Assembly (NCBI RefSeq): GCF_041260155.1
Contig: NC_091944.1
Location: 22,245,877-22,309,876, forward strand
Length of the DNA: 64,000 bases
Direction of reading: 5' to 3'
Origin: Ptychodera flava
Taxonomy: Eukaryota > Hemichordata > Enteropneusta > Ptychoderidae
The position numbers and the translations under genes were made by a program. Positions 2,899 through 48,849 of this stretch are shown piece after piece. Under the pieces are notes generated by a model. That model searched no databases. It was not told the DNA's origin and worked only from the letters and a program-made list of their open reading frames with translations. The first letter of the stretch is position 1, and each line of letters opens with the position of its first letter.

Positions 2899-2945
2899 AT
2901 TTGCTCATAGATCCTCGAGTTTTTCTCGACGGTCTATGATTTGCT
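2899..2945. mobile_element. Tiny hairpin insertion (33 bp) with 7-bp flanking direct repeat
   Basis: Arms CATAGATCCTCGAG (2906-2919) and CTCGACGGTCTATG (2925-2938) surround a TTTTT loop. The hairpin is flanked by exact copies of ATTTGCT at 2899-2905 and 2939-2945, as if the target had been duplicated. The same arm sequence, again with an exact 7-bp flanking repeat, occurs at 48814-48849. No transposase family with this end is known to me. Confidence 0.55.
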
Positions 2946-5400
2946 GCATGTCGAACGCAACATATCATTCACCTCGTGGTATTTTGAACACCGTCACGGC
3001 TGTCCAGATGATTCTGTTCTTGTTTTTAATCCTATTTTGAATAAATTAATTGATTGTAAAACTGCATTTTTATGATGCTGCAGAAGGACACGAAATATGA
3101 TGACCGTCTGTGAAAAACCAGTCTCTGAAGAAGCTTTCTGAGTTGGAATAAACGCGAACTTTAGAACTTAAAGGTATCGGATCCCCAGAAATATTGTATG
3201 TAAATTTTATCGCCGAAGCAAAAGTGACCCCACCCCATATAACATTTCCTGTATCAAACATAGCACTATGGGCAAAAAAAAAAACATTTTGTTCACTTTT
3301 GTTCACACAACTTCTCAAGCACTTTTCGCCACACACATACGTCGAGTAAGCGTACAAAGAGTCAACCGTTTTCCGCGCAATCTTGAAAATTTGGCCTAAT
3401 TTCCTAGCTGCACAGCTAAATATTTATGAAAGAGTTTCAGATTCAATTTCCTTATATGTTCCTCTTTCCATTATGACATTTTGGCAATAATTTCATTGAG
3501 GAATTCTTAAAATACCTAAGTGACAATGCTCATATGCAAAAATAGGTGAAAACACAGCAAACCTCACAAACGATCGCAAAGTCGTCATTTCATAAAAATG
3601 AGAGAGAAAATTAAAAAATTAAAATGACAGACTTTTAGTTAACCTTCATGAGATGCGTTATCTCAAATATTGTAAGAAATAATGGCGAAATGAAGAAGTT
3701 AAACAAACGGGTTTTTTAGATGTATTTTTCATTTCACGATGTGCGGAATAAGCTCGATTTCTCATAGAAAACAATGGCGCGCCATGGCGTCTAATGTACC
3801 AAACAGATTACACACTTTTTATCGAATAAACTTCTTAATTCTGAACCAATGATTAAAATGGCTTGGTGATCCTTTGATTGATATACAAAAATCGTATCGT
3901 TTTTAGATTTTTGAATTTCTTCATAAACCTTGTTTTATTTGCATTTTATTTATTCCGATCACTGAAATATACTGTTGCCGTCAATAATTTGGCGATCTGA
4001 TGGCGTTTACATCTGCAGAACAAGGCGTCTCTTAAGTTGTAAAGACCAAATACCTGTCAAGATGTTGTTTTTAAACCAGCTTTGGGTGAATATGAACAAT
4101 GAAAATTGCAGTAAATTGGTAAAAATAACAGAACGGCGGTGAACGGGCGCAGTCTCTACTGGGAGGGAGTATAGGGCGACATTTTTAATTTTTGTGTTTC
4201 TCATCTCCCAACCGACCGTTACAGCTCCGTCGGACATGAAAATAAAAAAATCTTTGTTTATTTGCGCCGCCTCTGAGGCGATCATCCTAGCATGTACTTA
4301 AAAATTGTAGTCTGACACTAAAGACAAGAAATTGCAGTGACTGAACGGACAGAACATTGAACTGAAACAAATAGAGTTTTTTTTATTTTGGTACTCGTTT
4401 TTTTTTTTATTTCGCCCGCCCGCCCTGCCTGAGTATTCCTCTGGAGATGAGAAAAAAAAAATAACAGAGTCACCGAGTAGTGAACGTAATCGATCGGTAT
4501 CCTTTTACCGGAAATTGATACAATGTTGTGTTGCACACTCGCTGATCGCGCAAAACTTTGCCAAGTACGCAAAACAAGCTGAAACAGAAAATCATCACCA
4601 ATTAAAACTGAACAAACTGTCATCGATTCAATTTGAGTGCAAGAAAACAACGGATACGTTGATTTTTATGGTATATAAGTCATAATATACGGGTTGTTAT
4701 GGAAATATTCATGATGTGACCTGAACACTCGCGAGCGGCACGCGAGCAGATTTCAATCGAATTTCAGTCTGTTTATTGAAATGAACGGGCCGAAAGTGCT
4801 GTCAGGCTGGGGGCCTGTACTTAAAGGGCCATTATTTGTAACTTTTGACCCACTTTTTTACCTCGGAAAATTCCATGTTGGAGGCTCATATTTGTTGCAA
4901 ATGTTGTTTTACGAAGAAACAAACATGATTAGTGATGTTATAGCCACAAAAACTGCTAATTTTTGTTCAAACGTGTTGCCCTTCCGAGCTCGTTTGTTGA
5001 CGTCTGGCATGCTCAGCGTGCTGGGGAGAACGCAGATATGGTGACGCCGCGATGACGCCACATGTACAAGTTCACGTTTATTGCAGGATCAAAACAACAT
5101 TGCGTCGTGGATTGCCAGACATCTGGCTACGCAACGTGCTTGGACAATGGACTACGACGTAAGTGCCGGGCATAAGTAATGAATATCTATTTTGAAATTG
5201 CTGTAAATTGCTCGCGCAGGTGCAGAAGAATGCCTACGTTGCAATCCGCGTGTCAACAGAGTTTGTATTTCTGTCCGGACAAAATTGAAATTTTCGTTGT
5301 AAAATCACATGATGATGTTATTTAGTTGTAGGGCACGTAATGTTTCCGAATAATATGCGATTCTCTGTTATTTGACAGGCTATTCAACATGAGCCAGTGA
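2946..5400. other. Non-coding stretch
   Basis: AT-rich, with T- and A-rich runs near 3280 and 4380-4460. No gene, RNA gene or window-wide repeat recognised. A TTAAAGGGCC sequence near 4820 resembles the ends of the TTAA MITEs, but no partner end was found. Confidence 0.35.
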
Positions 5401-5404
5401 TCAT

Positions 5405-6015
5405 TTCAATACTTTACTTTACTTTACTTTATTGCTCAACAACACACTCAACGAGTGCGGTAAGGCAAAAATTACAAAACTCAGCAAACACTGGATGACG
5501 CTGCTGCTGGGGGAGGAACTAACGTACAAGAAATAAATTTGGCAAGAGGTAGTTTGTTTTCGTGAGTAAAGATATACATGAACTTTTCTCTATCATTCAA
5601 ATCAAGAAAGCCAGGATTATACAAACTAGTGGATGAAAATAGACTATTTCGATAAGCTCTGTATTTTGGACATTCTATTACAAAGTGAAATTCATCCTCA
5701 ACTAAAGACTTACAATGCTTGCAGAATCTTTCATTTGCAGGAACTTTTGGAATTGACCTTCTACCCAGTTCTGTTTGGTGGTTGTGATCCGAAATTCTTA
5801 GTTTTGTCAGCCACCTCCTATAGGTAAAAGATCTTATATCTAGCAAGTAACTTTCAAATTCAAATTTTGTCTTAAATAGTCTGTAAGTTCGGAGCTTATT
5901 CCTCTGCATTCCACACTTCCTTGTATCATTATGAATGTTTCTCAACCATGTTTGTTCATAAGTTGCACATAAACTATCATATACATTATTTACTGTGCAG
6001 CTAATGGAACTTTAA
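5405..6015 (-). mobile_element. LINE (non-LTR retrotransposon) 3' fragment
   Basis: On the minus strand a frame open from about 6011 to the stop at 5483-5481 encodes the C-terminal part of a LINE polyprotein. It reads ...YEQTWLRNIHND, then KLRTYRLFKTKFEFESYLL, a RWLTKLRISDHN helix, and a zinc-binding block RFCKHCKSLVEDEFHFVIECPKY (C-x2-C-x8-H-x4-C), seen near the C terminus of many animal non-LTR elements. After the stop comes about 75 bases of 3' UTR and then a short (AAAGT)n tail at 5409-5432, the usual 3' microsatellite end of CR1/L2-like LINEs. The 5' part with endonuclease and reverse transcriptase is missing, a typical 5' truncation. The frame is intact over about 175 codons, so the insertion may be fairly recent. 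Confidence 0.8.
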
Positions 6016-6019
6016 CATT

Positions 6020-8030
6020 TCAAAGCTCATTTTGCCCAGAGTGAAGAGCCAGTTGGGCAGATCAAATTGGTGACAGATATCTATGGCATGGTTGGCTATG
6101 CGAATACGTACATTCATTCATAATCATCACAAAGCCGTCGATATATATGATTTCCTACACGTTACAGAAACTATAGGCCTAACTTTTGTTGTTGTTTTTT
6201 CATTATCTTTGTTCCATGTATCAACAACAACTTATTGGTCCACAAATTTTAAAATTACTAATACCAGAATTCAGTCTATCATTGCAGCGCGTCAGCGTTG
6301 TAATTGTTGACAACTGAATTCAAGTCCGGACCTGAATATGATTATCAATACTAACAATGCAGGACACACATAGACAATCAATATTGAAAAACTGAGAAAT
6401 ACGTTGTGGGGGCAGACCTACAAACTGCTGAGACTCACGAAACATAACCTTAAAACCTGGAAAATAATTGTCAAAAGTTTATACTTGGCCGTTGAAGTAA
6501 AACTGTTGTCATTATCTTAGGTACAGTCATAATCAATTTCACTGTAATGCTGGTAAGACGATGAAAAAAGAAGAGGAGATGTTTTGAGCATCTTCTTCTG
6601 AGTCGGACGAGCAAGTTGCGGGATTGACGGCTAACCTCTCTTCGTGTCAATGCCTTAGTGCTATACATGCCTCATTTTTGCTTCATCCATGGTTAGAAGT
6701 ATGGTATCAGCCACTTCCTATGGTTTGTATGTAGAAATACAAGAAAATATTGGCAATATTTTTATTTTCGCGAAACATAAAAAAACTTGGAATACACAGT
6801 TGGAAATCATATTCAGAAAAAGATGTCATAGTGCTAAATTTAGAGATAGAATGGCAAGATTATTACTTTCGGGACAAAAGAACTACGAACCTGCAAAAAA
6901 TGCTGGCTCTGCTGTTTTTTCAGTGATTTTGATAACTGTGTCATTCAATCATTTCGTGGTCAGCAACACAATTTTTTCTTTAACATTAAAGTCCTTAGGA
7001 ATGTTCTGGAACTCTTCGTTGCAGGAAATAGCTATTCTTCGTTTTCTTCATGTTTGAGATCTAAAATTTGTCATAAGGTAGTGTGAACTGCACAAAATAA
7101 AACAGTAGGCTCCGATCAATAGCGTATTTTTCTATACCATATATCTAGAATGACGTATTAAAAAAGTAAGATGGAAACAACTTTTTCTCGCCATATTTCT
7201 TGTCGACTCACTATACTTTACAACAAATGCAATTATAAGGAAAATTACGATATTTATTGTGCTTTTGCGCAGTCACAATCTGGTAATGGGAAGGTTAAAT
7301 GTCTTTCCAGCTCAAATAATGTCAACTGGCTGTTAGAGGGGATGATGTCCTAGGAAGTGCATTGCTCGCTATAAAATGCTTGTTCTCTGTGTTTTAGTCT
7401 TTGCTTGTCTCTCTGCAGATTTTTTTGCAGATTTTTTTTGCGTTCGGAATGCTGCTCCGCAGAAAGGAAGCTCATCCCGAATGAAATACTAACTTGGTTT
7501 TAGTGATATCAATGTTTCATAATTATGATTGATTATTTTTAATAATTACGAAAATATCATATTGTTAGACTATTTATGTCTAGTTCGCCTGTGCTTCTGA
7601 TCCGTTAGGCCTACTGGGCCCACATATTTGATTTGTTTATGGAAAACCGTACGTTTAGATTTTTTCGAGATAAATGTCATGAAATGTGACAAATTGTTCC
7701 AGATTTTATTTAATTATTACTAACATTAGAACAATTGGATGACATTATCAATAAAATGTTATTCATTTTGCACTGAATTACCTACCAAACTTTGGAATCG
7801 GAAGATGTAAAAAGTAAAAGGGAACCAAAAAATTTTCAGGTCCCCCTCAAAACTTTCAAGTCCCCTTCTACTACCCTCATATTTTCGAATCCCCCTGAAT
7901 TCCTCCCCCCCCCCCCCCCCCGTTTTTGTGAACGCAGCCTAATGTATTTAATTTCGATGCACTGTGCACTGCGGCAGAAAGTCAACGGAGTTTCATAGAC
8001 GTGGAGACGGAGGACGACCAGAGACGGAAT
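6020..8030. other. Non-coding stretch with a C-rich repeat piece
   Basis: AT-rich with no supported gene. The 122-aa frame at 6689-7057 has no family resemblance. Bases about 7830-7942 hold C-rich blocks and a 17-C run (7905-7921). Its complement (GCGTTCACAAAAACGGGGG) resembles the end of the Harbinger-like element at 9247, so it may be one end of a relative. Confidence 0.35.
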
Positions 8031-8038
8031 GCTGAAAT

Positions 8039-8051
8039 TACCCATAATGCA
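8039..8051 (+). promoter_or_regulatory. SBS-like motif at probable SLC25A51 promoter
   Basis: TACCCATAATGCA matches the core of the ZNF143/SBS element. It lies just upstream of the probable first exon on the plus strand. The role is inferred from motif and position only. Confidence 0.35.
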
Positions 8052-8234
8052 ACAACATTAGTTCACCAATGTTGAGGCCAAGGGTTATAGGTCATCATGG
8101 CGAAATGTTGAACACGACACGACATCGTGATCAGACTGGAGGCGAGCGTGAAACAGTTTTGCATTCATTTCCATACAAGTGCTTTTCCCTGGACGAACTC
8201 AACGCATATGGTATATTTACAAAATATCGCTCAG
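8050..8234 (+). other. Probable 5' exon (UTR) of SLC25A51
   Basis: The stretch ends at a strong 5' splice site, CTCAG|GTAAGA, at 8234/8235 and starts after the SBS-like motif. A matching acceptor may be the TTTAATTGTAG at 10671-10681, so the second exon would begin at 10682 and run into the start codon at 10851. It contains an ATG at 8069 that stays open to the donor (the frame reads MLRPRVIGHHGEML...), which would be an upstream ORF if the exon is joined as proposed. A separate small gene is the alternative. There is no transcript evidence here. Confidence 0.35.
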
Positions 8235-9243: not shown

Positions 9244-10272
9244 TTAGGGACCGTTCAGTTTTTACGGCGGGGGGGGGGGGCGGCAAAGTCCAGGGGGGGG
9301 GGGTCATCGTAATTTTGGAATCCGCAAAGGAGGGAGGGGTTATCGCTTTTTCACTGGTAAGAAAGAGGGGGTCACCACATTTTCAAAAACATAATACCAA
9401 CAATAAAGTTCACTTTATGCCATGGCCATGATCGACCCTCTTTACCGGCAGGCCGCCTTCGGCGGCCCACTACAATAAATATACATTATGTATTACCCAT
9501 GACCCTCTTAACGGGCAGACGCCTTTGGCGGCCCACTCCAATTAGGTTTACTTCATGCAATGGCCATGATTGACCCTCTTTACCGGCGGGCCGCCTGCGG
9601 CGGCCCACTACAATAAATTGACTTTATGTAATACCCCACGGCAATCTTACCGTAAAATTCCCAATTGAAGCCGCGGCTTGTATTAGAAACATTTTTGAGG
9701 GACCCCTGGGATCACGCACTGAATAATGGTAATGGCCGCGCGCCTTCAGCGGCCCTGTCCAGTAAAGTCTACTTTATGCAATAGCCATGATCGACCCTCT
9801 TTACTGGCGTGCCACCTTTGGTGGCCCACTAGAATAAAGTTGACTTTACGTAATGGCCCATGACCCTCTTAACCGGAGGGCTGCCTTTGGCGAACCACTC
9901 CAATAAAGTTTACTTTATACAATGTCCATGGACATGAGTTGTCTATGGAAATGAAGTTAAAAATTGCCTTACAGTCGTCCTAATTAACAGACGTTTCAAT
10001 TGATGTGGCTGAGAAGTTTGTGCACTGGCATCTCTGCTACACGAATAAAGTGCACCACGTACCAGAGTTCAAATCCAAACCATGCGGGTAAATTGACATA
10101 TGAGTTTTGGTTATTTTTCGGAGGGGGGGGGGTCATCAATTTTTTTCGTCTGACAAGGGGGGGGGGGTCATCTTTTTTTCAAAAAAAATGCAGGGGGGGT
10201 CTCTATCTTTTTGAACACCGGCGGCAAGATTTTGCCAGCCCCCCCAGGACGTAAAAACTGAACGCTCCCTTA
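9244..10272. mobile_element. PIF/Harbinger-like non-autonomous DNA transposon (1,023 bp)
   Basis: Terminal inverted repeats GGGACCGTTCAGTTTTTACG (9247-9266) and its complement at 10250-10269 agree at 19 of 20 positions. They are flanked by TTA at 9244-9246 and 10270-10272, the 3-bp TWA target duplication typical of PIF/Harbinger. There is no transposase coding. Inside each end lie long G runs followed by TCATC (9272-9305 and 10122-10197), in the same orientation rather than inverted. The centre (about 9400-9960) is a tandem array described separately. The near-identical ends suggest a young copy. Confidence 0.8.
9400..9960. repeat. ~69-bp tandem repeat with GC hairpins, inside the Harbinger-like element
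   Basis: The phrase GACCCTCTT recurs at about 9435, 9501, 9572, 9793 and 9861, giving a period of 68-71 bases, about eight units in all including decayed ones between 9640 and 9790. Each unit has the form ATGGCCATGATCGACCCTCT, then a hairpin like GCCGCCTTCGGCGGC, then CCCACTACAATAAA and a TTTACTTTATG spacer. Hairpin arms co-vary in some units (GCCACCTTTGGTGGC at about 9811), so base pairing is kept while sequence changes. Confidence 0.75.
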
Positions 10273-10850
10273 ATACAACTAATGTTGTCTAATTTTACAT
10301 GGTATAATACAGAGGTTAGTTCCACTAAATACACAATCTACAAAGTGGTCTTTTTTGATCGCTGAAGCCTGAAGACATTCAAGTCTGTTCTGCAGTATGG
10401 TGGTTCCAAGAGAAAATTGAAATATCCAATATTGCATATCTTTGGTTATCATGTACGTGCATTACAGCATGTGTGAACTCAAAAGGCAATCTTTTCAATG
10501 GCTGGTAATATTTGGTAAAGTTTAAGTTCTAGTTTTCTTATGTGTAATTTGGTTCTAGGACTATAACCCCCTGGATATTAACTAACTGGACATTCACCCT
10601 AACCCTATCCCTAACTCGTGTCCCAAATAGTGCGTGGTAAAATTTCCAGGGGGTAACCATCCTCATTCTGTTTAATTGTAGGTAGCTGCTGCAGTGACTG
10701 AATTTGTATCAGGGAGTGGACCACTCTCAGAAATGTACCTAATGAAAGACCACTCACCAGTGTGGATATAGATGTCGCAGTTCGCCAAAAGTTTTCTGAA
10801 CAATTGCAATGACATGATACTCGTCTGGGAAGCCCCGAGGAGTTGACATC

Positions 10851-13800
10851 ATGCCTAACGGAAACAGCGTTGTGCAGGAGGAGGCAACCTGGACAGAGCG
10901 GTCGTTGCACAAACCGACTGGGAATGCCGACATGCACCCCCGCGAGTATTTTAGCATCCGACATGATGATAACACATATAAGGCAATTACACCGAAGGAA
11001 AACTCATCCCTTGAATTCCTGTGCGGGTGGATGGCAGCCTTTATCAACATCACTGTAACATTTCCGATGAACAAACTGATGTTCCGTCAGCAGCTTCATG
11101 GAATAAAATGCTGGCGTGCCATGAAGCAGCTTCAAAATGAAGGCCTGGTGAACTTGTACCGGGGACTTCTACCTCCGCTCATGCAAAAGACGGCATCGGT
11201 TTCTCTGATGTTTGGGCTGTACGATTACTTCCAGAAGGTTATCCGTAGTCATAATCCATCGCTATCACTTCCGGTTACTCAGGGAATGGCTGCACTGCTA
11301 GCAGGTAGGTTGCAGGGAAAAAGTCAATGATAGTGTCATTCTTCCACATTTTTCTTTTTAAGGCGGAGGAAAATCTATAGGTGAGTGCATTGTCAGCCAG
11401 TTTCAAGAACGTGACATAGTGATATGGTCATTTTCTTGGAACTTCTCAAAAAGATTCATTAGAGAAACGCGACTCAAATTTTAAAATTGGCTTTATCATT
11501 GTGCCAGATTTCAAGGTAAATCAGGTAAAATCTTTCTTTATTTCTTCCTTTCAGTGCCGAGAAAATAAACCTAGAGCTGCAAAAATGGCACTGGTTTTGA
11601 TTGGAAGTTAATTGAACATCAGTAGAGTTGATGTTGGGATAGGCGGCCATTTTGAATTCAAATATCTGTCAAATTTACTAAATTAGGCAATATTTTTTTT
11701 CTAATATTTTGCACAGTGACCCCAGAAGGTGAAAGAAAATGGTTTAAAGTTTCCATAAGGAAAGTTTGAGCAAAAATTTTGCTGTCTTTTATTATGTATA
11801 CTACCATACAGGACTGAATTGTGATTGTGTTTATTGCCATCACATAAATGAACATTCCCCCCCCCCCAAATGGTGATATGTCTTCCTGTACATAGGTCCT
11901 GCTACATATCAAAATTATCATTGATTAATGTTCTTGTTATTAAATTTTAGTCGTAATTGCCTGTAGGCTGTAAATTGTTTGTGCCTGGTTACAAAGAAAT
12001 GCACATGATAGCAAATCAGGCTTCTTCTACAACCATGGGCATATGTTGAAAATTCAAACTGACCGACTTTCATCATGTAAAAAATGTGCAACTGGGTATG
12101 ACTGAGTATCTCAGACATTAGCTTAATATTTATAAGAGGCAATGTCAAATACTGAATGTTAAAGGAAACTTTCGATCCATGTTTTCTACATACAGATCCA
12201 CACCTCCCTCTCCCAAGCTTATATTGAACCCAGAACTATGTTTGTCCAACTAAGGTGTCTAATTGAAAATAAAACCATAAAGAATGTTTCAAAGCTCTTA
12301 TATTTCATAAGTTTTACAAGTAGTGTATCAAAATAATTTTTTCCGATGGAACACAGGTTAACAGTAACAGTCAGTATTTTGATGTCAAAACTAGGTCACA
12401 AGCAGCTACAGTTGCATTTCAACAAAGTTCCCATTAGCTCAGTTACAAACAAAATTTCTGATTTCTACTTTAATTGTGAAATTGTACTTTTACTGGTCAT
12501 CAATTTGTCTGATCGAAACATTTAGGATCAGAACTACTCTCAATTCAAGGAATCCAGTTCTTCATTTGATATTGAACTTTTTATACTTCGTCGCTTTAGA
12601 AAATGACTAAAACATTGCTTTGAACAGTAAGGAACTTGTAGAGAGTTTTTTATTAGTCTGTGTGCTTTTCAAAGGACACTATCTATCCACTGAATAGAAA
12701 AGATGTGCAGTTGTATGCTGGTTGAAAGAGTTTGTAATTCTGAACTGATAATCAGCATGTCACTGCACATCAGCTGATAAAGAAAAATAACGGCACTTGA
12801 ACAAGTAGAAATATGTTTGGTACATGTTGTCATGAGTCCTAGTTTATTTGTGTTTTGATCAGTAGATACTTTACAGTTCTTTGGTTGGTTCTATGAGCAA
12901 ATTTAAACGTGAATGCAAATGTAGTATCAGCACTAAATATAGTTGCTCGCTTAACCCTTTGAGCACCAACGTCAATTTTTCTCACCTCTATAAAATATAC
13001 CACAGTCAATTTTTCTCAGATTTTTCTGAAAATTTTGATAAAAAACTGTAGCCAATAAAACATGATATCCATTTTATCTAAAATCATCAAAATATTTCAG
13101 AAAAATTCTTAAAAGATTGGTAAAATGTGGCAGTAAAATTTTGATGGGAAAAATTACAGCACTCAAAGGGTTGATATGGAACAACAGGTAAATGTTCCTT
13201 TGATTTGTCAGTGATTTCAATACAGTTCCCAGTGGTATCTCATGTACAGAAGTGCTGTAGAAATATTATCAGATTTCAAGACCATTTGTTAGACTCTCCG
13301 TAACCCCATAACCCTTGGTACCATGTTGGCCATCACTTGTCACTAACAGTGGCATCAGAATAAAAGTGCTTGCCCAGGTGTTCATGTCTTATGCCTTGCA
13401 GCACTGTTGTATAGGAAAACCTGCCATGTACTCAGTTCATGGCTTGGGGCTCTCGCTTTCAGTATTGTATTGTAATTGTATACGAGGGACTGATTACAGT
13501 TCAGTCAGCTTTGACACTAGTACTAACTCATGAAGAAGGCATCAATACACTGCGGACAATTGAACTGTTTATCTTTCGTCCTAATCATCCATAAAAATTT
13601 TGAAATAGGATTATCAGATAGAACTGCAGGACCAGTCATTAAATTTCACTACAGGACTACAAAAACTGGTAATCCTGGGCAACGAAATGCATTTGTTCAC
13701 CTCTCGTTCACCTTTGAGCCAATGGAAACTGTGATTTTACTTAGGAGATTTAAATGCTAAACACTAAAATAACATTTGAGCTGCTCCAAACTCAAATGAT

Positions 13801-16408
13801 ATGCACAACCATAAATTAGAATGCATAGCATACTTTATCTTCTGACAGAGCAGATAAACTGTCAGTTTTTGAATCCCAAGTCCCATTTAACAGGGAACAC
13901 AGCTGCATTTCACTTGGCATGAAAATATTCAAGAAGTTAGCAGCATTTAATCAATGTCAATAGAACAGACATTTCAGTATAAAACTTTGATACAGAGAAA
14001 GAGATAGATACATTTCAAATGTTGATTGATTGCTCTGAGTGCAGTTGGGAGATAACTTTGTAATCTGAAATGAACCCAAACTGTGACCTACATTCAACAG
14101 TGACAACATGTGACATATGCACAGATACGACTGTGATTGGCTGAAGTTTGGGTGCGCTGTTTTGGTTTTTGTTTTGTTGTTTTTTTTATGGGGACCTGAT
14201 GGTCATGGAACTGTAAATGACTTTAATAATGAAATCATTGCAAACTCACTTACGTCAATTCAGAAATGGAATCTGAGACCAGTGTCAAGATGACCTAGTT
14301 TTACTCCAGCCAGACTTTGTAGTTGCCAAAAAAGGCACTATCTCATTAGCATACATTACATGTCGGCACTAGAAATCATGTTAGACTCATCCCTTACTGT
14401 TCACTATAATTGGAGTTGAAAATACATCTCCTTAGAAATCCTCAGCAAGCTTCAGGATTTCAAACCTGAAATACTTTTCAATATTCCAAATTTGACAAGA
14501 CCACAGACATTGACTTTGTGGCTGGTAACACATTGGCATGCAGATTCTTAATTTTTTTCGAAGTACTCCAGATTTAAACACAGAACTTAGCAGGCTGTTT
14601 ATGTTTTTGAGAAGACTGGAAGAATTGTATGATTGAAGATTTTTATTGGAAATCTGTTATGATAACTTTTTCCCAGGGAACTTAAATTAATTTTTTTCAT
14701 GAAAAAAATAAATGATAGGCATGAGTGAATGTCCAGATATTCCTGTCTATTGATTCATCAACATTCTCTATACGTAGGAACAATTTTCATGTAATGACAT
14801 GTTCATGCTTGTACATGTACAATGAACTTTGCAGAAGTGTTCCCAGTGACTGAAAGAATCCGGAGAAATTTATTTGTAAAGAGGGGAAAACAGCAGTTAA
14901 GGTATCTGCACCGCAAAAACAGGAAGTTTGAAGCTTTCGTACAGGAAACTTCAGACCATTCTCCTTTGTAGTTTACAGTGGAAATCACGGGTCAGCAAGC
15001 GATGTTTACGATGAGGAACAAATTTTCTAATCACAGTGTACTGATAGAAAAATTCAAAATGGCAACTTTATCTAGTGTTAACTCTATTTTAGAGTTTATG
15101 GCAGGAATAATGAAATATATAGGGAGCAAAAATGCAAATTCTAGGAAACCAGGGATGGTACAGTTAACCATCCTCCTCCATATTTGTGGTAGATTCACAC
15201 ATTCAACTTGAAGGACACAAACATTATTGTTGGTGTTTTTGTCCTGTATGTTGAATGCCTTTGTACTTGTTTCAAAACACAAACCCACAAGTCAGGGAGG
15301 GATTCATGTAAGATTGTTGTATGTCAGCTGCAAGGAAATTCATGTTTATGTACATTATATGAAATCACAAATCAAAATTATATTGAATATGCAGCTTCAG
15401 AAAACCATAACTAATTTCACTTATGAGGTATTTATTTTGTCATTGATAGTAATTCTTTTCAATTTTGAAGTGTGATATAATAGCCAATGCATGCCAAGCA
15501 CAGCCAGTAGATTTTGGCTGGCCAGTCTGACACAAAAAATAATTTGTGATGGAAGGTTCATTAGTATGCAAATATTTGAAACCTATTACTGTTATATCTG
15601 TACACTACAAATACCTTGCCATGTCATGTTAAGTTTTTTCAGTACCAGCATTGACTGAACAAAATCTGGTGGCACTGTTTCTCATAGGAAGTGCAGCAAA
15701 GCCTTTGATCTTATGTGACCCTTAGCTGACCTTTTTAACGTGGCATTATTATCATAACAAAAATATTTAGCAAGACCTTTGAATCTTTCATTCATTGTGT
15801 TGATAGGTAGCAAAAGTAAATTTTGTTGTTTGTTTGTTTGTTTATTTGATTGTGAATTTTCATATTGTAAACATAATTTTTCTCTGCCTGAAGGTACGAC
15901 AGAGGCAGCTTTGACTCCATTTGAACGTGTACAAACCCTGCTTCAAGACCACAGGCACATGAAAAACTTCAACAACACAATACATGCCTTCAGAGTGCTG
16001 CGTCCATATGGAATAGGGGAATATTATCGTGGACTCACACCGATTCTCATTCGTAACGGCCCCAGTAACATCTGCTTCTTTGGACTACGAGGGCACTTCA
16101 AGTCAGCTCTGCCGGAGCCCTCCAGCCAAATTGGACATACTATCAATGATTTCTTAAGTGGTGCTATGCTCGGTGCCATGCTGGGTACGGTCTTTTACCC
16201 CATCAATGTTGTGAAGACCCGGATGCAAGTTCGTCTCGGCGGAAGGCACCAGTCGACTTTCAGGACATTGCAGGTCATTTGGAAAGAGCGTGGTCGCAGC
16301 ATGCGGCGGATGTTCTACGGCGTGCAGATCAATTTCACAAGGTCACTGGTTTCATGGGGTATCATCAATGCATCCTATGAGCTCATCAAGAAAACATTTT
16401 TCTCGTAA
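10851..16408 (+). CDS. SLC25A51: Mitochondrial NAD+ carrier SLC25A51
   Basis: Two coding exons, 10851..11304 and 15894..16408, joined in phase 1 (GCAG|GTAGGT donor, CTGAAG| acceptor), give 322 residues. The ATG is the first in frame after a TGA at 10815. Three mitochondrial-carrier repeats are visible: FPMNKLMFRQQLHG (about 71-84), TPFERVQTLLQDH (159-171) and YPINVVKTRMQVRLGG in the third. SLC25A51-specific blocks match human closely: NLYRGLLPPLMQKT, AGTTEAALTPFERVQ, GIGEYYRGLTPILIRNG and SWGIINASYEL. Lys113, Glu155 and Arg205 align with human Lys91, Glu132 and Arg182, residues tied to NAD+ transport. The family imports NAD+ into the matrix across the inner membrane. The N-terminal ~50 residues are longer than in human and not conserved. 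The 4.6-kb intron carries three MITEs. The human coding region is, as I recall, unsplit. Confidence 0.95.
11600..11795 (+). mobile_element. MITE family A, partial copy
   Basis: In the SLC25A51 intron. Recognised by GGCGGCCATTTTGAATTC (about 11642) followed in order by the later family blocks: GACCCC, GGTTTAAAGTTTCC and AAGGAAAGTTTGAGCAAAA. The left end is missing and the copy is diverged, so it is old. Confidence 0.6.
12951..13174. mobile_element. MITE family D (224 bp), TTAA type
   Basis: Ends TTAACCCTTTGAGCACC and GTGCTGTAA...-like complement GCACTCAAAGGGTTGA are inverted; the left flank is TTAA and the right one TTGA. The interior is AT-rich with repeated CAATTTTTCTCA blocks and no coding. 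It sits in the SLC25A51 intron. Confidence 0.65.
14897..15110 (-). mobile_element. MITE family A, partial copy
   Basis: Starts TTAAGGTATCTGCACCGC and continues with GAAACTTCAGACCATTCTCC, ATCACGGGTCAGCA and AATTCAAAATGGCAAC, the family order in reverse orientation. The far end is lost. Confidence 0.6.
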
Positions 16409-22635: not shown

Positions 22636-22972
22636 TTAAAGTGATGTGCCACTCGAGAGTGAAAGATTTGAACTTTTGCTCAAACTTTCCTCAAGGAAAC
22701 TTCAAACCATTCTCTTTCAAAATCAAGAATAAAAATCAAGGGTCACAACTCAAATTTTGTTACTAGAGTTTAAGTTACTGAGGTTTAAAATTCAAAATGG
22801 CTACCATTGTTGTTTTAACTTTATGGGGAAAAAATTACATTTTCGATTTTCACAAAAATAAGGTGAAATTTTTATTTCCTGCAAGAGCCTTCAAAATTAT
22901 CCCACGCAAGTGGTAGATCAGAAAAGTATCAGAAAAATTTGAGTCTTGAATATCTGTCCTCGTGGGCATGCT
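22636..22972 (-). mobile_element. MITE family A copy
   Basis: TTAA, then GAGAGTGAAAGATTTGAAC, TTTGCTCAAACTTTCC, CAAAATCAAGAATAAAAATC, TTCAAAATGGCTACC and the distal AAGTGGTAGATCAGAAAAG and ATCTGTCCTCGTGGGCATGC. Close to full length; the right TTAA has been lost. Confidence 0.75.
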
Positions 22973-31602: not shown

Positions 31603-34600
31603 ACAGGCTGTGATACATGTATGAAATAGATAATTCTATGTTTGATTTGGTAACTCATTGGTTAATAAAGAAAATGTATAACTGAAAACATTGACATTAC
31701 TTTAAATAAGTTGGTAAACATGTATTCACAGCATTTAGGAGCAAAAGGTATGAAATGATTATGTAGGATTAAGGGAATTTGATCACCATATCTATATGCA
31801 AATTTGCAGTAACAGGCAGCTTTAAGATAAAGTTTAAACCTTATATGGATATTTGCAAATTTGCAGTGAACTGGTAACATAATAAAATTTGCATTTACCT
31901 TATATGGATATATGCAAATTTGCAGTGAACTGGTAACTTTATAACAAAGTTTGCATTTACCATATACGAATATACAACTTTGCAATGACTGGTAATATTA
32001 ATTAACACTTTGAACCCGGCTCGGACATAAATGTCCGATGACGTCATAGAGTACCAGGGGGTAAGGGTGCAAAGGGTTAAGATAAAGTTTGCCCTTACCT
32101 TATATTAATATATGTAAATTTCCAGATAAGGGTAACAATACGATAAAGTTTGCATTTACCTTATGGCTGGCCTACCATTGTGATCTAAGATAACATCTTT
32201 CTTTGAGTATGTCTTCACAGTATCATGAGACAGTGGCACTCTAGATCTGAGATCGCGGCTCTTCACATTGTGCATACAACACAGGAGGGTGTGAATCGCC
32301 TCCAGTTTTCGTAACAACATCTTTCGAGATCGATAAAATGACATCCTATTTTCAAAGAGAGACAGTTGAATAGTTTCTGATTAAAAAAATTATTTTTACA
32401 TTAATATCTTCATATCTTGCAGTAATCTTCTGTCTGGAAATAAACAGTCTGGACAGGATGTTACTATTTACTTTGTAGACACCTGCAGGTCTTCAGAGGG
32501 TATATGTTCAAGTCAAATGTATGCAATCACTATCAATCCCAAGAAGTGACATCTTTCTTGGGAAAAACTTTTTTTCTCATTTTGACCATAGATAGGTCCA
32601 CCAACACTACTTGAAACAACAGGAATGAACCAGACTTTTTGACGCTGCAGACACTGCTATGCTGTACAACAGAATTGCGGTCAATGCAGTAGTAGTGTTT
32701 TATGCAGGGCTTTGAATCCCTAGGCCCTCTGTAAGAGTCTTTGATGAAATAATTGTCAGGCACCATTTTCTTTGTGATGCTTGATATTACCCAAGGCAAA
32801 ATATCTAGAAACATCTGACAAAACATCGACAACTTGTATCATGTAAATCAAACTATAATTCACATATTCTATTTCACCATCCACAGAGTTGAATGATTTA
32901 AAAAGCAATGAAATGAACAAAAATTATACTGAAAGGTCATGACACAGTCCCTCTGTGGATAGAGGGACTGTGGTCATGAATATGGTATACAATGTGAAAG
33001 CTCTTTGCTTTATGACTATGGCAATCATTATATCTTTTTGATATATGGATTTTACTGAGATCTTATCGTATTTGCTTTTTATATTTCAACAGGGACTTGT
33101 CACCGTAGGACTTGCTTTGAGCAACTGTTTGCAAGTAGTTAGTGACGCATTTAAATAGCCAGATAGTTATTTTTTTTGGTCCATTACTCCTGTCTGCATC
33201 AATGAGCATGATACCGATTCCTTCAACCAGGGAAATCTAACGCTATTTAACACCATTATACTGCGTTGTTGTGTTTTCATTGCAGCAGTTTTACCGGATA
33301 GAAAGTCATGTACACCCCAGACATGCAGTTTATTTCTCTGTCACTGTGATAATCATGTGGACACGGTTGTCAAAAGAGCATTTTGTAATTGAAATGAGCT
33401 GTAAAGAGACATTGATATCATATCAGCAGTGTCAACTTGTGTTGACATCTTTTTGTGAAAGTTTTCCTTTTCAAAGATAGAACACACAGTACTAAATATG
33501 TCTTCACTGTCTCACTGTCTCTCTTTTAATACACCTTTAGTTTCACCTCGACACATACAGACAGCTTTTAACTTTTTTGCATGTTTCTTCAAAGAAACTT
33601 TCCACCATTCTCTTCCATTATCGACAATACAATCAGTAATCACCAAGAAAGTTTACCAATATTTCAAATTCTGTTGATTGATGATTCTTTGGGAAAAAAT
33701 TAAATTTTCAAATTTTAGATAAACGAGATAGTGGAAAACTTTTCTTCTCTGGCTACAAAGTGAATACATAGCAGAAAACTTTTGCAAATTTTGATTTTCT
33801 AAAAAACATTCCACATTTATTTACTCATAATGACTGCAGTGATCTTTGCTTTATATTTCAAAGAACTTATATGTTTCTTCATCAAATCCATCAAATCATA
33901 TTTCACCATTCCCATACACTTAATCTTAAAAAACTTCATCCAGTTAATCAAAATTAAGGTAGAAGCATCATTGTGTTCATGAACTCGAGCGTTCCTGATT
34001 TAACCTTCATAAACTTATAAGTTACATGATTTTTACATTATTTTACATTCTAAGTTCCTTCATCCAACCCATCAAATTGTATTCCACAACTTACTTCATC
34101 ATGTCCATCTCATCATCGTCGTTGTTCATTATAGCTGGACTCGGTGTCATGATCAGTCTCATTGAGAGTGCTGATTTCACCGGAGCGACTGGTTTGCACG
34201 GGTAGCCATAGCGTGAGTATATTTTGCCTCTGGGCACTGGTGGCATGGTGGACAGAGACGACAACTGACTGTGGATACTTTCTTCAAGACTTTTCCTGGT
34301 TTGCTATGCACAGAGTACAAAAATGAAAGGTTTTGTCAGCAATCATTGATGTACGGTAAAAAGTTACACATACATTCTAAATTTGCATGTAAAAGAGATT
34401 TATTTTCTACTTAAAGATATCCCTCCATTGATTTTGACTACCAAGGAGTTTGTGGAAAGGGAATATAGCCTGCTCCTGAGAATACACACACAATGTGGTG
34501 TTCAGCTGAAGGCCAAAGTTGCATTTCCAAATACTAATTTGAATAAATCCTGTTAACCATGTTCAAGTGTAAACCTCCACATGATGTCATGGGTCAACAG

Positions 34601-37600
34601 AGGTCAGAATTCAATAGATTAATAAATCATTACGAACAGCTGTCCTACCTTTTTTGTAATACTATACTAACACATAATTTTACTTTCTGTAGCTCTTTCC
34701 CAGTTTATATTATGTGACATCTGACACAGATGTAAAAGATCTTCTCAATCTCGCATAAAGAAGCAACTACACATATGACAAAAATCTCTTTCTTTCAGTC
34801 TTAAAACTTTCAACAAATTCATGCCATGGTCATGTGACTAACTGAAAGTTAATTTCAGCGATGGCATTTGTAGAGTCTATGGTGAAACTTTTGCATAAAA
34901 TCTTCAGAGCTTACACCTGACTTGGTAAAGCCTTATTAGGGAAATGTTATCTGACATGTCCAGGGCAGCTTTCATCCCTGTCAGCGAGCAGATGTTGAAA
35001 ATTGTAATGCTTTGTGTACTAATTTTTAGTAGTATGTGCCTCGAAAGTGCACGATTTAAATTTTTGCTCAAACTTTCTGCAATGAAACTTTCAACCATTC
35101 TCTTGCCACATCAATCAGGGGTCACCATGCAAAGTTTGGTATTTGAGAAACAAACCATCTCAACATCTACCGATATTTGAAATTCAAAATAGCTTCATTC
35201 CCTGTGTTATCTCGATGAGGAACAATAAAATATTTGATTTTCAAAACACTAAGATAGTGAAAATTTTCCTAACTCCAACAGCTTTAAAATGAGCCCCCAC
35301 AAGTGGTATATCAGAGAAGTATTGGACAAATTTGAGTCTGACAATCTGTCCCCGAGGCGCATTCTACCTTAATGTATATGGTTTTGGCAAAATCACTACA
35401 ATTACTACAATGGCTTGCTTATATTTGCCTTATAATGAAGATGAAATGCAATTTCACTGGAAAAGCCAACAGAACAGCGCCTACAGAAATTTTGCATAAT
35501 TTTAATTATATAGGGCTGGAAAATATGTGTACATTACATCCTCAATATACACAAGTACCCAGGGGGGATGGTGGCAATTTGCTCAACGTGTAGCCGTTAA
35601 TGGTGGCCACTATACAAACACACCCACTGCTTCACTTGAGCAGAAATTTTTCTTGCAAAAACCCTAAATGAGATAAGAAGACAAACACATGCAAAATTGT
35701 GAATTGAAGAGAAAACGTATTTCTTCTAAATCAAAACACAACTCAACAATGCCCATCATTGCATGTACTTAATTTTCCTGGCAGGATGGCGGAGGTGCTG
35801 TGTGAGAATGTCAATATATATATTCATAGCACTCCAAAAACATGGGTATGCCTGGAAGGTATACACAATTGCGTAGAAGAATAATTTAATAATTACAGTC
35901 ATTCGCATTTATATTCCACTTGAATTTTTTTAATGGATGACTGATTGAGTCTTGACCTATTTTTTTTGTAAAATGTGCCGGTCGTTCTCCTTTCACGACA
36001 AACAGAGTTGAATTGTTGCAAGCCACCTTAAAGGCCCACAAGCTGCATATGTTTTGTAATTTGTTGCCATAAAAATATCTCCAATTTCTCAGGTATTTGT
36101 TGAAATCTTCCTATTACCTGGTAATACATTACAACAACACTTATTAGTAATGGGAATCTTTGAGAAAATTAAACTTTTCACTTCATTTTAAATTTCCCGC
36201 CATTTTGCCAAAACTGGGCATATTAAAAACAATGACACAAAACTACTTTTCATGCAAAAGTAAAATCGTAAAAGTAATACACAAAGTTGCAGTTGGTGGG
36301 CCTTTAATAAAGTTTCAATGGAAAACATCCTCCATGGTATTTGATCACTATATATTGTCTGCTGTAATGTGTGTTAAATGTTCTGTGGAAAATATTGGAA
36401 CTTGTGACGTTTTATCCTGCACACACTTCACACGATAATTATCCTTTGGTATCAACTCCTTATCTTATCACCACAGATACACTGGCCAAATCACTGTGTT
36501 AATGACCGTGATTGTCTTTATGTGTGTGTCTGTTATATAAAAAGGCAATTTCATGGAAGATAGAGCTATTATTTCTGTCTCATCACAGGAGAGAGAGAGC
36601 GATTGTGAAAGGTTTGGGAAAATAAACATATTGCAAGAAGTAACTCATTGATGACCCCCCTATAAAGGCAAAGAGCAGATGACTTTGACAAATTTCCACC
36701 TGAAACATGTCAATTTCTTACTTTATAATGGGAAAGTCACACATATACGCCTGATTCACAACACTATGGTAAACAATTATTGAAATGTCTCTTAAACCCT
36801 CTTGAAAATAATTTTACAACCATCAATCTATAGGATTACACCACTGGAATCAAGTTAAGTCCTAAAATTCTGTAACATACTAGGGGGGATATTATCAAAT
36901 ATTGATCAAATGTTAAATACAGTCCAATCATTGCCTACGCTGTGCACCCAGTTTTTCCATTCACGATATTCTGTCTGTAGTCGATGTGGTGATTGACAGT
37001 TGTCAGACACCAGTCTGACCTTTGACTCACGAAACCTTAGAGCAAATTCAGGAATTTCTAGAATTTGTTTGCACTGGCGCTCTATAACTATGTGTATTAT
37101 ATGTAACATTGTTCTGCGTCAGACAAAATAGCTTTAAAATGAGCCGCCCCACAAGTGGTATACCAGAAAAGTATAGGAAAAATTAAAGGGGTCTGAATAT
37201 CTGTCCCCGAGGTGAACTCTACATTAAAGAGTATGCAAAAGCTACAATCTTGTTCTCACCTCCAATTCTTTGACACATTTATCGAATGTCTGCCCTCCCT
37301 TGACTGCAGTCATAATGTCTTCTGAATCTTGCAGCTGATGTTTGATGTGAAGAAACCCCGCCGAAGCCACCGCTGCGTTCTTGACATTGGTCTTGCTGCC
37401 TTCAGATGGACCTTGAAATTTCTGCAGTGTTAAAAAAGTGACATAGTGCAGTTCATTGATCCATTGAGCAATTATATCAAAAACATTTACTGATTGCTAG
37501 GCTGCAGCTAATGGTACATTGAATACGTATATATTATAGTAAATTTTTAAAATACCATGTCTTCATTTACTTTTTTCTGACATTTACAGGCAAAAAGTGT

Positions 37601-42087: not shown

Positions 42088-42513
42088 CAGGGAACCCAGA
42101 AATCTGGTTGTTGTTGTTGCTGTTGTTGTTGTTGTTGTTTGTATTGTTATGTCTATATTAGTCATGTTGTTGTTGTTGTTGACCAATAAAATTCAACGAA
42201 CATGTATACTGTGTTGCTATTGTTTCAACGTAAGGTAGATGTCATAAGAAACACAAGGACACTATCATTATTTGACGCAGTACACTCTCTCCGTATAGGG
42301 AGAAATTAGTGTACGTTGGAAGAGTTGCATAGCGTCAAATAATGATAGTGCCCTCGCAGTTTCTTATGACATCTACATTACGTTGAAAGAGCAACACATA
42401 ATATATGTTCGTTGAATTTTATTGTTCAACAACAACAACAACAACAACAAGACAAATATAAACACAAACAACAATACAAACAACAACAACCAGATTTCTG
42501 GGTTCCCTGTGAT
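42088..42513. mobile_element. Large foldback element (~425 bp)
   Basis: TCACAGGGAACCCAGAAATC at the left and its complement at the right begin arms that pair along almost the whole length. The arms contain (TTG)n and (CAA)n stretches, then AAATTCAACGAACAT, AGATGTCATAAGAAAC and CACTATCATTATTTGACGC. The fold turns near 42297 (CTCTCCGTATAGGGAGA). There is no coding, and no certain target duplication was found. In intron 1 of the histidine-rich gene. Confidence 0.85.
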
Positions 42514-42880: not shown

Positions 42881-42953
42881 CTGATGTACCGTGAAATATT
42901 ACGTCAAATACATGTGCGTCCCAGCAGCACCTAAAAGTTCACACGCCATCTTG
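42881..42953 (-). other. Probable first (5' UTR) exon of the histidine-rich gene, with uORF
   Basis: Ends at CATCAG|GTAGGC (42881). The acceptor TGATTTTACAG| at 40595 then adds 16 bases of leader before the ATG at 40579. The exon contains AAGATGGCG, both a YY1-type start-site element and an ATG (42949) opening a 16-codon ORF, MACELLGAAGTHMYLT, that stops at 42899 before the splice. True start is unknown; a CCCAGGATGC close to the SBS core lies about 40 bases upstream. Confidence 0.5.
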
Positions 42954-43079
42954 TTCTGTGTCACATGATCAAAACTTTCTCTTTACCCAAGCATCCTGGG
43001 TGGTTCTCTTGTTCTCTTGCGATGTTCTTTTGTCCATGCGCAGTGTGTGTTCAATCGTGCTCGTTTGGCGCAAGTGTTT

Positions 43080-43153
43080 GGTCATGGCCTATTTATCCAA
43101 ATGTCCTATTTCTATTGGTCATGGCCTATTTATCCAAATGTCCTATTTCTATT
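43080..43153. repeat. Perfect 37-bp tandem duplication
   Basis: The unit starting GGTCATGGCCTATTTATCC occurs twice with no difference (43080-43116, 43117-43153), about 130 bases outside the first exon of the histidine-rich gene. Confidence 0.95.
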
Positions 43154-43159
43154 AAGAGA

Positions 43160-44982: not shown

Positions 44983-45074
44983 TTAACCTGTTCACCTCAA
45001 TTCCCTGTGAAGCGGTCCATTATTACCGTTGATAACAATCGGATTCGGCCAAACCATTGAGGTGAAAGGGTTAA
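44983..45074. mobile_element. MITE family E (92 bp), best-preserved copy
   Basis: TTAACCTGTTCACCTCAATT at the left pairs with AACCATTGAGGTGAAAGGGTTAA at the right, TTAA on both sides. Confidence 0.75.
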
Positions 45075-45952
45075 TGTCCACGACTTGGATGTTGCATTTT
45101 TGCTTCCACTGTGTGTTATGACCAACATTTGAAGAGGGGAGGAATTTTAAAACAGAGCGAAAACCGTTAAATTTAGCTGTCAATTCTGTCCCAAATACAG
45201 GCTGTTGTAACGTAGGATAAGACTGCTTCATTTGCGTGGTAGAATTGAAAGAATATCTGAGAAAATTTCAAGATAGTTTTATATCAACAAGTTACGATGA
45301 GGTGAAATCCACTGCCTATAACGTTTACCTACAATGCTTGACATGCTCCATGGTAACGTCAAAAACCCCTTAAGATAGAATGGAATTGAAAAGCAAAGGA
45401 ATAAAACAAAGCTTTGCACTAGGTATCGGCTTTAAGTGTAAGATTTTTTTACACCCTAGTGCAGATATCCAAATATGAAACCTTTTGAATATTAACAGCA
45501 GCCTAATTAGTTGCAACTAATTTCATTTGTTTTCGGGAAGTACACCCTCCTCACATAACCACCTTCATCAAGTTGAAGATGTTGCCAGTCATGCGCAACT
45601 GAAATGAAAAGGTATGGAATATAGCTGGAAAGATAAATCGGTTCAAGAAATTTGCATCTTGGGCTCTGAAAATGTCAGCTGTTTCTGTTGTTACAATGTC
45701 TTTGAGGCAAATCATTCCAGTCTTTGATAGTTTGCGAGAATTCTTTCCTGTCGTTTACAATAATATTGACGTGCCCTTTCTTGTCGCACTGATCTTCGAT
45801 CTCTGAAGTCATGTTCAGAGCAAAGTAATGGTCTAACCCTGAAGCAAATAGTACTCACGCCCGCCCCCGTGAAAATTGTCCGCCACCGCTATGATTGATC
45901 AACACATAGAGTTATCCTATAGGCAGTGAACAAATAGCACATTTGCGGCTTG

Positions 45953-46653
45953 ATAAGGTTGCATGCGCCTCGAAATTGAAAGACTTAAGATAGAACGCGC
46001 CTCGGGGACAGGTATTCGGACTCTCAAACTTTTACAATTTTTTTCTGATATACCACTTGTGGGAATTCATTTTAAAGCTCTTGATGTAAGAAAACTTTTC
46101 TCTTGCTTAGTTTTGCGAAATTCGAAAATTTTATTTTTCTTCATAGAGTTAACACAGGGGTGGCGGCCATTTTGAATCTTAAATATCGGTAAATCTTGGT
46201 TTATTTGTTTCTCTAGTACCAAAATTTGCATTGTGTCCCCCGGTTTTTATTCTTGATTTTGAAAGAGAACGGTTGAAAATTTCCTTAAGGAAAGTTTGAG
46301 CAAAAGTTTAAGTCTTTCACTTTCGAGGCACATACTTAAACTATTCCTTAAACTTACCGTACAGAAACTTTATACATTTCCTTTCGAAATCAAGAAGAGA
46401 ATTCAGGGGTCACGGAGAGTAAAGTTTGGTACCAGAGAAACAAATAACCCAAATAAGTACTGGCACTTGAGTTTCAAAAAATGGCAGCCAACCACATGTT
46501 AACTCTACGGGGGGAAATATAATTTTCGATTTAAAAAAATAAGCTGGTGAAAACTTCATTTGCTCCATAAACTTTAAATTTAAAAAGACTCGCTAAGTAT
46601 TGCAAAAGTTTGAGAGTTCGTATATGTCGCCCCTGTGGCGCATTCTGCCGTAA
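45953..46653 (-). mobile_element. MITE family A host copy, split by another copy
   Basis: Left piece 45953-45988 (ATAAGGTTGCATGCGCCTCG...AAAGACTTAA) and right piece 46336-46653 (TTAAACTATTCC... to GTGGCGCATTCTGCCGTAA) are continuous parts of one minus-oriented copy. The break falls at the family's own internal TTAA (GACTTAAAC). Confidence 0.8.
45985..46339 (+). mobile_element. MITE family A, full-length copy nested in the previous one
   Basis: 355 bp from TTAAGATAGAACGCGCCTCG to CGAGGCACATACTTAA. The TTAA at each side is shared with the interrupted host copy, which shows TTAA target duplication directly. The interior holds GGGTGGCGGCCATTTTGAAT. Confidence 0.85.
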
Positions 46654-46654
46654 C

Positions 46655-47198
46655 TTACGACTGTCGATATACTTTTAGTGGACACGATGCAACTAATAAA
46701 CAAATAAAACTGTTTAAGCCTACCTTGGATCAATTCAAACCGTAAATAAAAAAACAAATTTGTCCTGAAATTGCCTGAGATGTTATCGATAAATCGACTT
46801 CAGCATTTTGCCTCGTATCTAACGAAGCATGTCAATGGATTTCTCCTGTTAGTTAATGCACTGAGGCAATTTATCGCGATTGCTCACGTAATGGCAACAG
46901 CGCACTCACTTTGGATTTGATTGTTATTGCTGACGACACTTCGCAGCGAAGAACGCGAACATCAGGGCCTGGACTTAATTAACAGCGGGGGGTGCGATTG
47001 GGGGAGGTTACCGTTATTCATCCAATAGTTTAGGGGAGGGCCCTTTCATTTCGTGCGTGAATTAAAATCAGGGAGTTGGTCACCAATGTTTGTGTAAGTT
47101 GGGATGTGGAAAAGATCAACTGATATTGTAAAACTCTGCGCTGAAAAGTGCATGGAGAAATTATGAAATCTATAGATAGGGCATTGTAGTTTTTGTAG
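46655..47198. other. Non-coding stretch
   Basis: Nothing recognised apart from a short G-rich patch near 46985. Confidence 0.3.
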
Positions 47199-47222
47199 CA
47201 TCATCCTCCTCCTCCTCCTCCA

Positions 47223-47268
<46 letters not shown>

Positions 47269-47309
47269 GTCGTCGTCGTCGTCGTCATCATCATGATTAT
47301 CATGATCAT
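47199..47309. repeat. (CTC)n(CAT)n(CGT)n trinucleotide repeat
   Basis: CTC units, then about 15 CAT units, then CGT and CAT again. The long Asp- or Met-only frames across it are products of the repeat and are not called as genes. Confidence 0.95.
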
Positions 47310-48813
47310 CAAGACCGCCATTAAAAATAATACTTATTTTTAAACAGTCTGTGATTATATCCAATGCCCAAACAGCGATTTTCTCTCTCCCTTTCAGTGA
47401 CTTTATGTATTTTACTTAGTTTTCTGTGTTTCTAGGACAGAAATTGCACTTTTAATGGATATCTTAGTATAATTATAAGTATAAAGTAAATGAGTTTTTT
47501 TCTCTCCCTGTACAATATTGCATGTCTATTAGTTTGGTTGGCAACATGTCTTTGGTTGACACTCAAACTTTGTCGACAATACGCTGACTGGCTACATATA
47601 CATGAAAATACTGTATCGACATGCCAATAACAGGAAAATTCGCATTTTCTATTGGGAATAAACTATTGGAAAAAGGTATCATGCTCCCTATTTAAATTCA
47701 AATAATTTGTCACTGGGGAGGGACACTTGTTTTTGACCAAGGTTAAAGGGGAGGGTCAACATTTCTTGTGCAAGCAATCACGGGAAGGGTTGGTGTTTTT
47801 CACGCATCCGGCTTTTGAAAAGGACCCTCCCCTTCATGCGTGTTAATTCTGTCCGAGGCCCTTACCATGGACGAATGTTCTTCCTTAACCTTTATCATAG
47901 ACGAATGACCTTTCGGACTAATCCTAAGACGGGAGATCTCTGCTTCTCCCTGAGGTGGCGACAACATGTTTTTCTCGCGTTGTTTTTCAGCATCTCCGAT
48001 TCATTTATGGCACTCACAATGCATGGCCATGGCCATGGTACTAATGAGAGACGCTATCACGAGATGCCTGTACATAGTCAAATCGACATGATGCAAACCA
48101 GGAAATAAATCTTTCAGAATCGAAGTTGAAGTGAAAGACTTGGAGCAATCAATGCAATTCAGCAAGGAGACGCGTACAACGACTCCTACCCGAGCTCCAA
48201 TGTTCCAAATGACGTTATATCTACACATCAATTTAAATTATTGTATTACATTTCCCCGTGATTGCTGTCTGGTTAATAGTATGCATAGAGCCGTCATCGG
48301 GTTGGATGAGGAGACTGGTGCGATTTGTCAAATTCATAGACCAAATAAAGTCATCGCCTTTCAGAGTGTCTGTAACTTCTGGAGCTCATGTATCTCAAAA
48401 CCCAGGTTGGTGATCTTGTTTAATCAAAGAAAGGCAAGAGTCATTGTTAAACCATACCCTAAGGCCACGGCTAATTCAGTCATTTCGTTGCAGCCTTGCT
48501 GCAAAAGGTTACAATAAGCACAGAATCACCTTTAAAAGTCTGTCAATTTGCAATTTGGGGGATTGGACTTACATAACATCCATTACCCAAGCTGATTCTA
48601 ATGATGGATGAGGTAATAATATAGCAATCAAGCCGATCCCAGCGTGCGTTCACACTGACTGCATTGAGTAAATCTAATATGTGCTCGAATCCGTAAAACG
48701 CATATGCGTAAAGTGTGCTGTGTATTGTACCAAATTTTCCAATCCAGCGCAAACCACTCAGGTGCAGTTGGCCTGAAGCTTTTCCGATTCAGATTGCCAT
48801 ATACCCATGTTTG

Positions 48814-48849
48814 TGCAGACCATAGACCCTCGAGGGTCTATGTGCAGAC
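48814..48849. mobile_element. Tiny hairpin insertion (22 bp) with 7-bp flanking direct repeat
   Basis: Perfect 22-bp palindrome CATAGACCCTC/GAGGGTCTATG (48821-48842) between exact TGCAGAC copies (48814-48820, 48843-48849). Same arm as the hairpin at 2906-2938, without the loop. Confidence 0.6.

Follow-up and report, generated by a model that had tools for sequence, protein, structure and literature searches.

Excision of the Drosophila P element differs from that of other well-described transposons. P transposase binds internal 10-base-pair (bp) sites and, as described in PMC7776569, cuts the second strand 17 nucleotides (nt) within the inverted repeat, a stagger that is named there as setting P elements apart from other characterized cut-and-paste transposons. 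Elsewhere, excision is reported to proceed without a footprint (piggyBac), with a 2- to 3-nt overhang (Tc1/mariner) or with hairpins formed on the flanking DNA (hAT) (PMC3878927). For the P{wa} element in flies, each side of the break is reported to carry the 8-bp duplication and 17 nt of the inverted repeat (PMC5466332). We analyzed a stretch of 64,000 nucleotides from the hemichordate Ptychodera flava (assembly GCF_041260155.1, contig NC_091944.1, positions 22,245,877 to 22,309,876; hereafter the window), in which three short hairpins with related arms each lie between two exact 7-bp direct repeats. These hairpins are probably excision footprints of cut-and-paste transposons of the P superfamily.

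Two of the hairpins had been described, with their exact touching 7-bp direct repeats, in a first-pass annotation of this DNA, and both were confirmed at 2899-2945 (site A) and 48814-48849 (site C). A scan that looked for short hairpins directly flanked by exact repeats, blind to the sequence of the arm, added a third, site B, at 32936-32979; the same scan run on five simulated windows gave no 7-bp case. At site A, 12 of 14 arm positions pair, and the run shared between the flanks is exactly 7 bases. The arm of site B, CACAGTCCCTC, is like CATAGACCCTC at 9 of 11 positions, giving the consensus CAYAGWCCCTC. Because this arm only resembles CATAGACCCTC, the family is broader than a single arm. 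The predicted single-strand folds of sites A and B had z-scores of -5.84 and -7.16 against shuffles, while that of site C had a z-score of -3.45, with 3 of 200 shuffles equally stable.

Hairpins and flanking repeats in the window, with the 7-mers named after their most likely origin
Site	Feature	Sequence	Positions	Strand	Basis	Remark
A	Left target-site duplication	ATTTGCT	2899..2905	.	sequence	
A	Hairpin, 33 bp	CATAGATCCTCGAG + TTTTT + CTCGACGGTCTATG	2906..2938	.		
A	Right target-site duplication	ATTTGCT	2939..2945	.		
B	Left target-site duplication	GTCATGA	32936..32942	.		New
B	Hairpin, 30 bp	CACAGTCCCTCT + GTGGAT + AGAGGGACTGTG (complete: CACAGTCCCTCTGTGGATAGAGGGACTGTG)	32943..32972	.		New; related arm
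B	Right target-site duplication	GTCATGA	32973..32979	.		New
C	Left target-site duplication	TGCAGAC	48814..48820	.		
C	Perfect palindrome, 22 bp	CATAGACCCTCGAGGGTCTATG	48821..48842	.		Putative junction of two ends at CTCGAG, which is self-complementary
C	Right target-site duplication	TGCAGAC	48843..48849	.		

Short hairpins are frequent in this DNA, which favors the view that chance hairpins or regulatory palindromes simply lie beside chance repeats. Counted as start-end pairs of 20 to 40 bp with arms of 8 and at most one mismatch, so that a hairpin may count repeatedly, they numbered 916 in the window. Exact touching repeats of 4, 5, 6, 7, 8 and 9 bp were found at 3, 3, 0, 4, 0 and 0 of these pairs, respectively, and three of the four 7-bp cases were sites A, B and C. 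The remaining one, at 11096-11124, lies inside a carrier-protein frame and is flanked by AGCAGCT, a sequence almost identical to its reverse complement. The repeat there is an inverted arm extending into a near-palindromic flank, and this case, which needs no transposon, also speaks for chance. However, 30 first-order Markov windows, with a mean of 718 pairs, gave one exact 7-bp case altogether, as well as 12 of 6 bp, against the three cases with related arms observed here. With stricter arms (10, at most one mismatch), a 7-bp repeat was present at 2 of 134 pairs, sites B and C; site A is missing from this count because of its two arm mismatches. A wider scan (1,255 pairs, loops of up to 25 nt) returned the same four exact 7-bp cases and five more with one mismatch, and its one exact 6-bp case was within a CAT microsatellite. 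Repeats that peak at exactly 7 bp are expected from a transposase whose target stagger is 7 bp. At sites B and C, what precedes the left 7-mer, one base or more, is identical to the last base or bases of the hairpin, so that the shared run is 8 in the former and 9 in the latter; the repeat length was set at 7 because site A is exact and the units were taken as symmetrical, CA...TG.

Bacterial and viral DNA served as a control for chance rather than as a source of host relatives. No exact 7-bp repeat flanked a hairpin in 15 bacterial and viral loci (135,182 bases), and three exact-arm palindrome patterns had no match in viral contigs. The 14-mer CATAGACCCTCGAG was found in 13 viral contigs, in none of which, within the DNA examined, was it accompanied by a partner end (at most three mismatches) and a 7-bp repeat. 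One palindrome pattern searched in GTDB genomes gave two matches with the exact CATAGACCCTC arm (L001, 3267-3303; L002, 5145-5181), a point in favor of chance, although both lie between bacterial reading frames without flank repeats and are terminator-like chance matches. The window had no Rfam match at gathering score. Taken with the simulated windows and the control loci, the presence of exact 7-bp repeats beside three related arms makes a chance origin hardly credible.

Excision by a P-type transposase would account for the arrangement as follows. An element with ends of the type CAYAGWCCCTC would have inserted at each site and duplicated 7 bp of target, giving the repeats that are observed. 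The transposase would later have excised it by cutting one strand at the duplication junction and the other approximately 17 nt inside, so that each broken chromosome end would retain a 3' overhang with up to 17 nt of the element end; both steps are established for Drosophila P. End joining would then have closed the break with the overhangs head to head, yielding a palindrome between two target duplications. As head-to-head inverted repeats give a hairpin shape, no function has to be assumed for the hairpins. All three sites have exact touching repeats, of 7 bp with symmetrical units (7 to 8 bp are known for Galileo), and at 33, 30 and 22 bp the hairpins stay within the 34 bp (2 x 17) of two inverted ends of at most about 17 nt each. 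This size limit, the CA...TG ends and a 7-bp duplication like that of Galileo suggest an element of the P superfamily.

The junctions can be considered one by one. Site C is reproduced exactly when the 14-nt end CATAGACCCTCGAG and its own reverse complement are annealed at the 6-bp self-complementary tip CTCGAG, which gives CATAGACCCTCGAGGGTCTATG; here the overhangs would have annealed at CTCGAG, their tips would have been trimmed, and fill-in would have followed. Sites A and B are, to judge from their sequences, compatible with near-full joins of two ends. Site A would be a near-complete join of both overhangs and can be read as about 16 to 17 nt from each transposon end, the mismatches at 2 of its 14 arm positions stemming either from unlike ends or from later mutation. 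Site B would be a join with a few bases trimmed, in which the middle, GTGGAT, between the 12-bp arms would come from the inner portion of one end or of both, where the ends are not identical.

The joins recovered from flies, as tabulated in PMC5466332, provide a range of lengths for comparison. They come from Rad51-deficient animals, Pol theta proficient in that paper's Table 1 and Pol theta ATPase-dead in its Table 2, and our tally comprises 20 of 34 isolates in the former and 21 of 29 in the latter, the long-microhomology joins (14 and 8, respectively) being left out. Lengths in the first set were 7 (one isolate), 10 (one), 14 (one), 20 (two), 30 (three), 32 (two), 33 (one), 34 (four, one with inserted bases), 35 (three) and 44 bp (two), and in the second 10 (one), 17 (three), 20 (three), 22 (two), 28 (one), 30 (ten) and 34 bp (one, with inserted bases). 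The lengths of sites A, B and C all occur among them. The fly 22-bp join is a perfect palindrome annealed at TA, a construction like that of site C. According to the same source, fly joins often use internal microhomology, the most-used internal ones hold several GCs, and short microhomologies are preferentially used near the overhang tips.

An equal order of duplication, end, end and duplication is given by aborted gap repair, a known outcome of P excision according to PMC8951532. The hairpins would then be ends-only internal deletion products, formed when gap repair on the sister chromatid template added a few bases of each end, then halted and was sealed, and the element could belong to the P or another superfamily. 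No limit at 34 bp is expected for products of this kind, whereas all three units measure at most 33 bp, an argument that is weak with three sites. In addition, longer units that combine a 7-bp repeat with matching ends did not rise above background up to 4 kilobases (kb). We consider this origin unlikely. The relevant search for parent elements covered lengths of 20 to 4,000 bp and required a 7-bp repeat together with agreement of the ends at 10 of 12 positions. It returned five matches, namely, sites A, B and C and two without an initial CA, compared with 30 in 20 simulations. A looser search extending to 12 kb gave 28 matches, compared with 442 in 20 simulations (approximately 22 expected).

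The first-pass annotation had also proposed that the 22- to 33-bp units are themselves mobile. In that case, two-end units would have been mobilized in trans, and related arms with differing exact 7-bp repeats at three sites are in keeping with this. Part of the proposal holds: the 7-mers are most likely target duplications and the arms transposon ends, and mobility is likely for the parent elements. For the hairpins themselves, mobility is most likely the wrong conclusion. Mobile mini-units predict like lengths and like middles, whereas the three copies show three of each; all are within 34 bp, and in design they agree with sequenced P excision junctions. A 22-bp unit would leave little space for pairing two ends, and it would have no room for the internal sites bound by P transposase as described in PMC7776569. 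Furthermore, excision accounts for the same facts by a reaction demonstrated in flies (PMC5466332). Mobility of the mini-units is thus very unlikely, and if the hairpins are scars, the claim of record-small mobile elements loses its basis.

Several observations weigh against excision of P-superfamily elements. There are only three sites, and the 64-kb window holds no longer element with ends of the hairpin type above background. No P or THAP domain was detected in the 40 frames scanned among the 47 window reading frames of at least 95 amino acids, repetitive or overlapping frames being among the seven left out. P of the fly is described as making 8-bp rather than 7-bp duplications (PMC7776569), and those of zebrafish Pdre2 are likewise given as 8 bp (PMC10983969). 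In the tables of PMC5466332, a common fly scar is 4 or 7 bp between the duplications (14 of 34 and 8 of 29 isolates in the first and second table), and 5 of the 34 isolates of the first exceed 34 bp, all of them assigned to the insertion class and carrying between 3 and 11 inserted bases. As fly joins with inserted bases exceed it, 34 bp is not an absolute limit, and since our hairpin scan is blind to 4- or 7-bp scars, the present sample is biased toward longer ones. Parent elements would be expected to lie outside the window, in the rest of the genome.

Footprints could also have been left by a superfamily other than P whose cuts likewise fall within its ends and whose target duplication is 7 bp. 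Duplications of 7 bases are not exclusive to P, no transposase was found in the window frames scanned, and superfamilies of unstudied cleavage remain candidates. hAT elements make 8-bp duplications, whereas site A has exactly 7 and none of the 916 pairs is a symmetrical 8-bp case. Among the mechanisms compared, as set out in PMC7776569 and PMC3878927, P is the only one after which the donor site retains long portions of both ends, and we regard a non-P origin as quite improbable.

Two candidates within the window were rejected. CATAGACC at 48335 was considered as a partner of site C, which would define a 508-bp element, but TGCAGAC is absent from its flank. The palindrome at 32466-32505 has a similar end, AGAGGGTATATG, and no matching duplication was seen by eye in its flanks. 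In searches of papers for six end strings, no transposon paper could be recognized by title among the matches listed, and in literature searches on excision footprints and P-superfamily elements, no natural P footprint of this kind appeared in the titles or abstract openings of the open-license matches listed.

If the three hairpins are P-type scars, their density of three per 64 kb implies frequent past P-type excision in this animal, and the long stagger known biochemically from Drosophila could become readable from sequence. It is also conceivable, if doubtful, that the self-complementary tip CTCGAG in a 17-nt overhang steers joining toward a single clean scar of 22 bp and leaves the host flanks intact, the element thereby shaping its own repair. 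Should this be true, scars across the genome would constitute a record of past excisions, and they would reveal the position of the cut in a non-model animal with no need for biochemistry.

The remainder of the window contains genes and repeats of other kinds. A coding frame with a doublecortin domain (1017-1319, minus strand, E 2.2e-18) lies approximately 1.6 kb from site A. Two separated frames on the plus strand, 10818-11330 and 15758-16408, carry mitochondrial-carrier domains and are probably exons of a single carrier gene, and a PDB search with the frame at 5481-6011 gave no match. At 48843-48945, the right duplication of site C is followed immediately by a long CT microsatellite (TGCAGACAGACTCTCT...). 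A near-perfect palindrome of approximately 270 bp (51021-51291) has arms, 51039-51124 and 51194-51279, that are 95% complementary, an inner palindrome at 51128-51191 and TTTGATAGGAGA at both ends; it looks like a foldback miniature inverted-repeat transposable element (MITE), with AATTT or CATAA as candidate 5-bp duplications. An inverted repeat of approximately 315 bp (42147-42461), with 75-nt arms that are 83% complementary, has a GTT microsatellite on one side and a CAA microsatellite on the other. Members of a dispersed repeat family lie at 22636-22778, 35029-35380, 45982-46336, 50229-50590 and 53591-53954; they span a few hundred bases, occur in both orientations and are approximately 72 to 87% alike over the longer matched stretches. 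Finally, a 98-nt unit is present three times at 9401-9857, each copy with a GC-rich inverted core such as GGCCGCCTTCGGCGGCC.

Compared with known systems, the three hairpins share with minimal MITEs a pair of inverted ends enclosed by target-site duplications. In MITEs, an interior is present and similar copies form families; here, the interior is absent or consists of a few bases, each copy has its own junction, and neither length nor middle is shared among the three copies in the window. The targets ATTTGCT, GTCATGA and TGCAGAC had no common motif by eye (n = 3). Galileo, a member of the P superfamily, is reported to make mostly 7-bp and sometimes 8-bp target-site duplications, as found here, and differs by its preferred target, GTANTAC, and its long inverted repeats (PMC4168063). 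The zebrafish Pdre2/THAP9 element, whose P-type transposase is reported to be active in excision, has 13-bp inverted repeats that start with CATA, a likeness to the hairpins here, whose ends start with CA and finish with TG; its end, CATACCTGTCAAC, diverges after CATA, and its duplications are 8 bp long (PMC10983969). The likeness to the P{wa} joins of Drosophila, as given in PMC5466332, extends to the layout, in which direct repeats enclose up to 17 nt from each of two inverted repeats set head to head, to annealing at internal self-complementary bases, and to ends that start with CA and finish with TG (CATGATG in Drosophila P). The fly element differs in its 8-bp duplication and its end, CATGATGAAATAACATA, compared with 7 bp and CAYAGWCCCTC here, and its scars were induced in repair-mutant flies, whereas those proposed for P. 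flava are natural. The hairpins are thus best read as a natural instance of the reaction known from flies, carried out on another end sequence.

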